Origin: Candidatus Pelagibacter communis
Lineage (GTDB): Bacteria > Pseudomonadota > Alphaproteobacteria > Pelagibacterales > Pelagibacteraceae
Assembly (NCBI RefSeq): GCF_001180105.1
Contig: NZ_CVSO01000040.1
Location: 1 to 64,000, forward strand
Direction of reading: 5' to 3'
DNA: 64,000 bases
Shown: one piece after another, positions 4,981 through 57,716 of the stretch
How positions within the stretch are numbered: the first letter of the stretch is position 1
Layout of the letters: every line of letters begins with the position of its first letter
Notes under the pieces: generated by a model
Seen by the model: the letters and a program-made list of their open reading frames with translations, nothing else
What the model was told of the DNA's origin: nothing
Database searches by the model: none
Made by a program: the position numbers and the translations under genes

Positions 4981-5070
4981 GGAGAGATGGCCGAGTGGTT
5001 TAAGGCGCACGCTTGGAAAGCGTGTTTAGGGGAAACTCTTTCGTGGGTTCGAATCCCACTCTCTCCGCCA
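4981..5070 (+). tRNA. tRNA-Ser (anticodon GGA)
   Basis: The 90-nt class II tRNA has a GGAGAGA/TCTCTCC acceptor stem, an anticodon stem CACGC/GCGTG with loop TTGGAAA (anticodon GGA, serine), a long variable arm, a standard T arm (GTGGG TTCGAAT CCCAC) and an encoded CCA at its 3' end. The D loop keeps the usual GG pair. It sits inside the glycosyltransferase block, two bases after the preceding gene, which makes it a plausible recombination or insertion landmark, though no att-like repeat is visible. Confidence 0.95.
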
Positions 5071-26841: not shown

Positions 26842-26916
26842 TGGTGCCCTCGATGAGAATCTAACTCATGACTGACCCTTACCAAGGGCCTGTTTTAACA
26901 CTAAAACTACAAGGGC
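26842..26916 (-). tRNA. tRNA-Thr (anticodon GGT) with altered elbow
   Basis: On the minus strand a 75-nt tRNA folds with acceptor GCCCTTG/CGAGGGC, discriminator A and encoded CCA; anticodon stem GGCCC/GGGTC with loop TTGGTAA (anticodon GGT, 26881-26883); and T stem ATGAG/CTCAT. Two universally conserved elbow bases differ: position 19 is T (26898) instead of G, and position 56 is A (26862; T loop TTAGATT) instead of C, so the 19:56 tertiary pair becomes U:A. One extra T (26903) sits in the D arm after position 13. All stems pair fully, which argues against a pseudogene. Confidence 0.88.
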
Positions 26917-31027: not shown

Positions 31028-31102
31028 GGCCTTGTAGCTCAGTAGTAGAGCAGTACCCTGAAAAGGTATGTGTCGTAAGTGCGATTCTTACCAAGGCCAC
31101 CA
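31028..31102 (+). tRNA. tRNA-Phe (anticodon GAA) with altered elbow
   Basis: The 75-nt tRNA has acceptor GGCCTTG/CAAGGCC, discriminator A, encoded CCA, D stem GCTC/GAGC, anticodon stem GTACC/GGTAT with loop CTGAAAA (anticodon GAA, 31060-31062) and T stem GTAAG/CTTAC. Two near-universal bases differ: position 18 in the D loop is A (31044) rather than G, and position 55 in the T loop is G (31081; loop TGCGATT) rather than T. The usual G18-pseudouridine55 contact is therefore replaced, while G19-C56 is kept. Confidence 0.92.
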
Positions 31103-31651: not shown

Positions 31652-31726
31652 GCCCTGGTGGTGAAATGGTTATCACGGAAGTTTGTGGAACTTCAGTTTT
31701 TGGTTCGATCCCAAGCCAGGGTACCA
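31652..31726 (+). tRNA. tRNA-His (anticodon GTG), no encoded G-1
   Basis: The 75-nt tRNA has acceptor GCCCTGG/CCAGGGT (closing G1-U72), discriminator A73, encoded CCA, D loop with GG, anticodon stem GAAGT/ACTTC with loop TTGTGGA (anticodon GTG, 31685-31687) and a standard TTCGATC T loop. The base before G1 is C, and position 73 is A, so the otherwise universal G-1:C73 identity pair of tRNA-His is absent, as known for a large group of alphaproteobacteria. It ends five bases before the hisS start codon. Confidence 0.94.
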
Positions 31727-57614: not shown

Positions 57615-57618
57615 AAAT

Positions 57619-57706
57619 GGGGGCCAATCAGGTGGTGTTACCATAAATCCCCCCAGGCTTGAAAAAGAGCAAGGGTAATGAGTATTTTCCAGGTTGATTG
57701 GTCTCC
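57619..57706 (+). ncRNA. ffs: Signal recognition particle RNA (4.5S type)
   Basis: The RNA of about 88 nt forms a terminal stem between GGGGGCCAATCA (57619-57630) and TGATTGGTCTCC (57695-57706 region) with two G-U pairs. At the tip is the SRP domain IV motif: CAGG (57654-57657), CTT-GAAA-AAG (57658-57667) and AGCA (57668-57671), the symmetric loop that binds Ffh. The tetraloop is GAAA rather than the common GGAA. The place directly before dnaX-ybaB-recR is the usual one in alphaproteobacteria. Confidence 0.88.
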
Positions 57707-57716
57707 TTAAAAATAC

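Follow-up and report, generated by a model that had tools for sequence, protein, structure and literature searches.

Paired A18 and G55 substitutions in the tRNA elbow of Pelagibacterales that lack a recognisable truB gene

Few tertiary contacts of tRNA are as strongly conserved as that between residues 18 and 55, and the near-universality of Ψ55 calls for an explanation, given that truB can be lost. Suppressor tRNAs that the Steinberg group selected from randomised D- and T-loops reportedly include working molecules with non-standard elbow bases; those are laboratory selections, whereas the tRNAs described below are natural genes. The closest described systems are these. In the canonical elbow, formed by the G18-Ψ55 and G19-C56 pairs (PMC4810234, PMC7912444), residue 18 is inserted between residues 57 and 58 of the T-loop, where a single hydrogen bond pairs it with Ψ55 (PMC4810234). 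The outward-facing G19-C56 pair serves as a stacking platform for the L1 stalk and RNase P (PMC4810234, PMC5309774). TruB requires the sequence GUUYRANYC at positions 53-61 of its substrate (PMC7912444). In the T-loops of other RNAs the slot can be filled by an adenosine, whose partner in a trans sugar-edge/Hoogsteen pair is a G in the second position of the loop (PMC11363276), and UGNRA is the consensus of T-loops that take up an outside A (PMC2258182). Loop position 2 corresponds to position 55 of tRNA. Such loops are found in the FMN riboswitch (PMC11363276) and, as UGAGA, in the TPP aptamer, where the ring of the ligand fills the slot (PMC2258182). The gene truB is missing from several Mollicutes, namely three hemoplasmas, M. 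genitalium and M. pneumoniae (PMC4014445), which resemble the genomes considered here as reduced genomes missing truB.

The stretch analysed here (hereafter, the window) comprises the first 64,000 nucleotides of contig NZ_CVSO01000040.1 of Candidatus Pelagibacter communis and contains four tRNA genes. The features that bear on the elbow are as follows.

31028-31102, + strand: tRNA-Phe(GAA) (ARAGORN; RF00005, 68.0 bits), with D-loop AGUAGUA, T-loop UGCGAUU and encoded CCA
31044, + strand: A18 of tRNA-Phe by tRNA numbering, where G18 is standard
31045, + strand: G19 of tRNA-Phe by tRNA numbering, standard, pairing with C56 at 31082
31079-31087, + strand: T-loop region of tRNA-Phe, G53-U-G-C-G-A-U-U-C61, with G55 at 31081, fitting UGNRA
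26842-26916, - strand: tRNA-Thr(GGU), G18 U19 and U55 A56 (ARAGORN, Rfam), with U19 at 26898 and A56 at 26862 as counted by hand
31652-31726, + strand: tRNA-His(GUG), canonical elbow (ARAGORN)
4981-5070, + strand: tRNA-Ser(GGA), canonical elbow, for comparison (ARAGORN, Rfam)

Membership of the first gene in the tRNA-Phe family is supported by its RF00005 score against a gathering score of 29, the highest among the four tRNAs of the window, and by the anticodon GAA that ARAGORN assigns; all of its stem pairs are intact in the Rfam alignment. By tRNA numbering T54, G55 and C56 fall at 31080, 31081 and 31082, so that the first-pass annotation had located both A18 and G55 correctly. Like the canonical elbow, that of tRNA-Phe has U54, a purine (G) at 57, A58 and the G19-C56 and G53-C61 pairs; unlike it, the 18-55 combination is A-G in place of G with U or Ψ, and a pseudouridine is impossible at position 55. 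The sequence at 31079-31087, GUGCGAUUC, departs from the TruB substrate rule, and the target U is absent; since TruB needs GUUYRANYC, tRNAs of this type cannot be its substrates. The loop UGCGA instead follows UGNRA. Single-strand free-energy folding of this tRNA-Phe counts against the case, as it recovers the acceptor, D and anticodon stems and replaces the T-arm by another hairpin; the tRNA-Thr of the window folds with an extended D-stem, and a tRNA-Val and a tRNA-Thr from relatives (loci L039 and L286) fold as cloverleaves.

In the tRNA-Thr(GGT) of the window it is the G19-C56 pair that is exchanged, for U19-A56, with G18 and U55 kept. The earlier observation that two of the four tRNAs in the window have one elbow contact swapped on both sides thus holds, tRNA-His and tRNA-Ser being canonical. 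The whole genome is an assembly of 860,157 bases in 80 contigs (78% complete) with 16 tRNAs by RF00005: the T-loop starts with TTC in 14, and only tRNA-Phe and tRNA-Thr(GGT) deviate. The GC content of the window is 25-31% per 4 kb, and the genomes of relatives measure about 1.0-1.5 Mb, features which, together with the gene content, point to a SAR11 bacterium. The tRNA-His genes found 3' of tRNA-Phe are quite dissimilar among relatives (31652-31726 in the window; loci L018, L019, L026, L061 and L075), as if tRNA-His, perhaps with the adjoining synthetase gene, were swapped as a cassette; A18/G55 versions of tRNA-His occur at loci of three relatives (L023, L028 and L289). The window also contains a small SRP RNA at 57616-57714 (Rfam score 46 bits, cut-off 40).

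The distribution of the variant was followed through 297 genomes of the order with a pattern composed of a D-loop ending in AGTA, T33, a T-loop TGCRA and an encoded CCA. The reach of such patterns is confined to class I tRNAs whose D-loop ends in xGTA, whose spacing is standard and whose CCA is encoded. It matched 158 of the 297 genomes, against two for the backward-pattern control. Designating the genera g1 (that of the window's own genome) and g5 to g10 and the sister family f2, the counts before checking for tRNAs were 123/198 in g1, 27/29 in g8, 6/7 in g9, 0/1 in g10, 0/2 in g5, 0/3 in g6, 0/4 in g7 and 2/53 in f2. The two f2 matches (genomes G094 and G037) are attributed to chance, as ARAGORN places no tRNA there, and the remaining 156 genomes all belong to g1, g8 and g9. 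Among the matches listed for these three genera most are tRNA-Phe, accompanied by tRNA-Thr(GGT), tRNA-His and tRNA-Val(GAC), as judged by eye. The pattern is absent from 75 of the 198 g1 genomes, and seven g1 loci carry a canonical tRNA-Phe. In the complete genome G012 three of 32 tRNAs have A18/G55 (Phe, Thr(GGT) and Val(GAC)) and 29 are canonical. A separate tRNA-Thr(GGT) pattern matched 55 of 157 genomes; among the matches listed, A56 was found in six (the window's own genome, G069, G166, G179, G004 and G082), each time with U19, and G55 in five (G149, G009, G139, G120 and G077). The matches of this pattern at loci L266, L297 and L298 were rejected as not being tRNAs. A18/G55 is a lineage feature.

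The same 297 genomes were searched for truB, the gene of the Ψ55 synthase, using the profile PF01509 (TruB_N). Matches were obtained in 51 genomes (2/2 in g5, 3/3 in g6, 4/4 in g7 and 42/53 in f2) and in none of the 235 genomes of g1 (198), g8 (29), g9 (7) and g10 (1); the 11 f2 genomes with no match range in completeness from 54 to 91%. An initial test had matched six of 20 genomes, with complete one-contig g1 genomes among those without a match. The gene order is infB-rbfA-truB-rpsO-pnp in one g5 and one g6 genome. In 12 of 12 inspected genomes with no truB match (eight of g1 including the window's own, two of g8 and one each of g9 and g10) it is infB-rbfA-rpsO-pnp, and rbfA and rpsO are separated by at most 12 bases or overlap. 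In the window's own genome, 78% complete, PF01509 finds no match and rbfA and rpsO adjoin on another contig (G000:C38), so that truB is missing exactly between them. The check for truB proposed by the first-pass annotation carries its claim further: the TruB modification site of tRNA-Phe is gone, and no gene for the enzyme was found either. Of the 51 genomes in the order that match truB, none has a confirmed A18/G55 tRNA. Within the order this association comes mostly from one clade, and a Fisher value computed on the counts summarises them without bearing on cause. In a HisD tree of 49 loci, built in place of a species tree, the seven loci with canonical tRNA-Phe cluster (support 86/85); the tree has several very long branches, fixes neither the root nor the direction of change, and was set aside.

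We consider it probable that A18-G55 constitutes an alternative, modification-free elbow contact, and that truB was lost before some tRNAs exchanged G18·Ψ55 for A18·G55. In this scheme truB would have been lost first, leaving the G18-U55 contact bare of its modification, and some tRNAs would then have traded it for A18-G55, which would need none. By analogy with the adenosine of UGNRA T-loops, A18 may enter a UGCRA loop in the gap between its bases 57 and 58, and the A18-G55 pair is probably of trans sugar-edge/Hoogsteen geometry. The loops UGCGA and UGCAA of these tRNAs share the U1, G2, N3, R4 and A5 of the FMN riboswitch and TPP aptamer loops, and here too there is an A that could enter the gap after residue 4 and before residue 5; they differ in that the loop belongs to a tRNA and the A would come from its own D-loop, in a geometry proposed by analogy with those RNAs. 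That loss of truB preceded the swap is likely. That it caused the swap is a step we infer, because the association lies mostly in one clade and truB-positive genomes elsewhere carry such tRNAs. Loss of truB does not force the swap, as seen in the canonical tRNAs of G012, in the g1 genomes that give no A18/G55 match and in the seven g1 loci with a canonical tRNA-Phe.

The truB-positive genomes come from a scan of named genomes in which the known forms of the order were kept out by excluding G at position 49. The scan returned at least 120 loci with the A18/G55 pattern and yields no rates. ARAGORN was run on 120 listed loci; 73 of these contain a total of 77 matching genes, of which 68 were called tRNA-Gly(UCC), in Streptomyces and relatives, and the other 47 gave no matching gene. 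Two tRNAs from these loci serve as examples.

Locus L081, 296-371, - strand: tRNA-Arg(UCU) of a Berkelbacteria genome, A18 and G55 read by eye from the sequence
Locus L078, 7211-7283: tRNA-Gly(UCC) of Streptomyces with A18 and G55, whose T-stem carries an additional U in the Rfam alignment

Twelve outside genomes with an A18/G55 tRNA were tested for truB, and seven matched: all four actinobacterial genomes (three Streptomyces and one Streptacidiphilus), together with Aggregatilineales, Fimbriimonadaceae and, more weakly, a Woesearchaeote. The five genomes with no match are those of Berkelbacteria, where both a tRNA-His and a tRNA-Arg are of this type, Kaiserbacteria, Amesbacteria, Rickettsiales AB1 and Kazan, the last being the only one described as complete. 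The A18/G55 pair is thus present in several unrelated lineages, with and without TruB, and loss of truB is not required for it. The tRNA-Gly(UCC) of L078 is divergent, yet it combines A18/G55 with a truB gene in the same genome and was counted against a role for truB loss. Some Streptomyces records contain two or three matches to the pattern close together. Typing by script covered 39 of the 61 distinct outside tRNAs and gave 30 canonical, nine A18/G55 and no mixed elbows, the other 22 lying outside the typing.

These seven truB-positive genomes, the concentration of most of the correlation in one clade and the 29 unaltered tRNAs of G012 lend weight to a different account, in which A18-G55 is a true elbow pair of origin unrelated to truB, the gene having been lost through genome streamlining in a clade that happens to share both. 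We judge this unlikely, although it merits serious attention. It sits poorly with the order's 51 genomes that have a truB match, whose two pattern matches proved to be chance, with the gain of A18/G55 by four isoacceptors where truB is missing, and with the five of eight non-actinobacterial genomes that carry such tRNAs and give no truB match.

That both elbow partners were exchanged in a compensated swap we regard as firmly established. Among the 297 genomes the mixed pattern G18/G55 matched six and A18/T55 five, the backward control of the latter being higher at 11, and ARAGORN found no tRNA at any of the 11 mixed-pattern places. Elbow typing of 85 distinct tRNA sequences of the order gave 65 that are canonical on both sides, 17 with A18/G55 (Phe 8, His 3, Thr 3 and Val 3) and three with U19/A56; a two-sided change was seen in 20 of the 85 and a one-sided change in none. 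The loci were picked by our own searches, and for that reason 17 in 85 does not represent a frequency. The first-pass annotation had proposed relaxed or rewired elbow recognition. Rewiring is borne out by two-sided changes in several tRNAs and many genomes; relaxation is not supported, because no single-sided change was seen within the patterns and the 85 sequences.

The T-loop pentamers of the 85 tRNAs are TTCGA (53), TTCAA (12), TGCGA (11), TGCAA (4), TTAGA (3) and AGCGT (2). Because UGCGA or UGCAA is found in 15 of the 17 distinct A18/G55 tRNAs, we read these tRNAs as using the general adenosine-receptor T-loop instead of the form specific to tRNA. The other two, both tRNA-Val, have AGCGU, in which the 54-58 pair is swapped from U/A to A/U in addition to A18/G55.

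Locus L039, 1614-1688, - strand: tRNA-Val(GAC) with T-loop AGCGUAA (Rfam, 53.6 bits)

The same tRNA-Val(GAC) occurs at loci L040, L043, L044, L045, L046 and L199, with one base different in L046. Together with the U19-A56 pair of tRNA-Thr, the A54-U58 pair of tRNA-Val may suggest that evolution of the elbow as a whole proceeds through compensated changes of paired bases.

The assignment of A18 depends on the register of the D-loop, and the seven-nucleotide loop AGUAGUA, taken by itself, permits a reading as A17 G18 with G19 deleted, in which position 18 would still be G. Such an error is very improbable. The D-loops of tRNA-Thr(GGT) are of equal length, eight nucleotides, being AGUUGGUA in g5 and AGGUAGUA in g1 with A replacing G18, which fixes the register of A18; moreover, the A is seen with G55 and never with U55 in the pattern searches and the 85 typed tRNAs. 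A register shift was rejected on the equal length of the tRNA-Thr(GGT) loops.

Specialised staphylococcal tRNA-Gly species with altered elbows exist, and the variant might likewise mark non-translational or regulatory tRNAs or serve as an identity signal. This seems most improbable: four isoacceptor families carry the variant, the complete genome G012 has a single tRNA-Phe among its 32 tRNAs, and the RF00005 search of the window's own genome (16 tRNAs, 78% complete) found no second tRNA-Phe. As the only tRNA-Phe found in both genomes, the variant must translate. The earlier proposal had named canonical bases in very close relatives and a second tRNA-Phe gene as what would speak against it; the relatives G016 and G035 instead carry the identical 75-nucleotide gene, as does G221 of another genus, and G022 has a close version. 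A pseudogene, assembly error or sequencing artefact, which the fragmented state of the window's own genome might suggest, can be dismissed, because independent genomes (G016, G035 and G221) share the identical gene, which takes the change beyond chance or error, and because the change is paired and breaks no stem pair in the Rfam alignment.

With A18-G55 retained as the favoured modification-free contact, its expected consequences differ between tRNAs. No change in the contacts of tRNA-Phe with the L1 stalk or RNase P is predicted, because G19-C56 is kept. In tRNA-Thr(GGT) the outward face is U19-A56, which could matter for those contacts. Literature searches on A18/G55, unusual elbows, SAR11 tRNAs and truB, judged by titles and the openings of abstracts and with most subscription journals outside their scope, returned no description of this elbow, and the available portion of PMC4285135 makes no mention of it. 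As far as these searches reach, A18/G55 represents a natural form of the elbow that had not been described before.

On a broader reading, which we find evenly poised, loss of the Ψ55 synthase would have opened a route along which elbows were rebuilt one isoacceptor at a time, from G18-Ψ55 to A18-G55, in streamlined free-living bacteria and independently in some candidate-phylum bacteria, with the 19-56 and 54-58 swaps as part of the same picture. A natural clade without truB that holds both G18-U55 and A18-G55 tRNAs makes the question of Ψ55 testable, as the two kinds can be compared within one cell for their folding, stability and processing. The A18/G55 tRNAs also illustrate in detail how an RNA may be reshaped once the enzyme that modified it has been lost.
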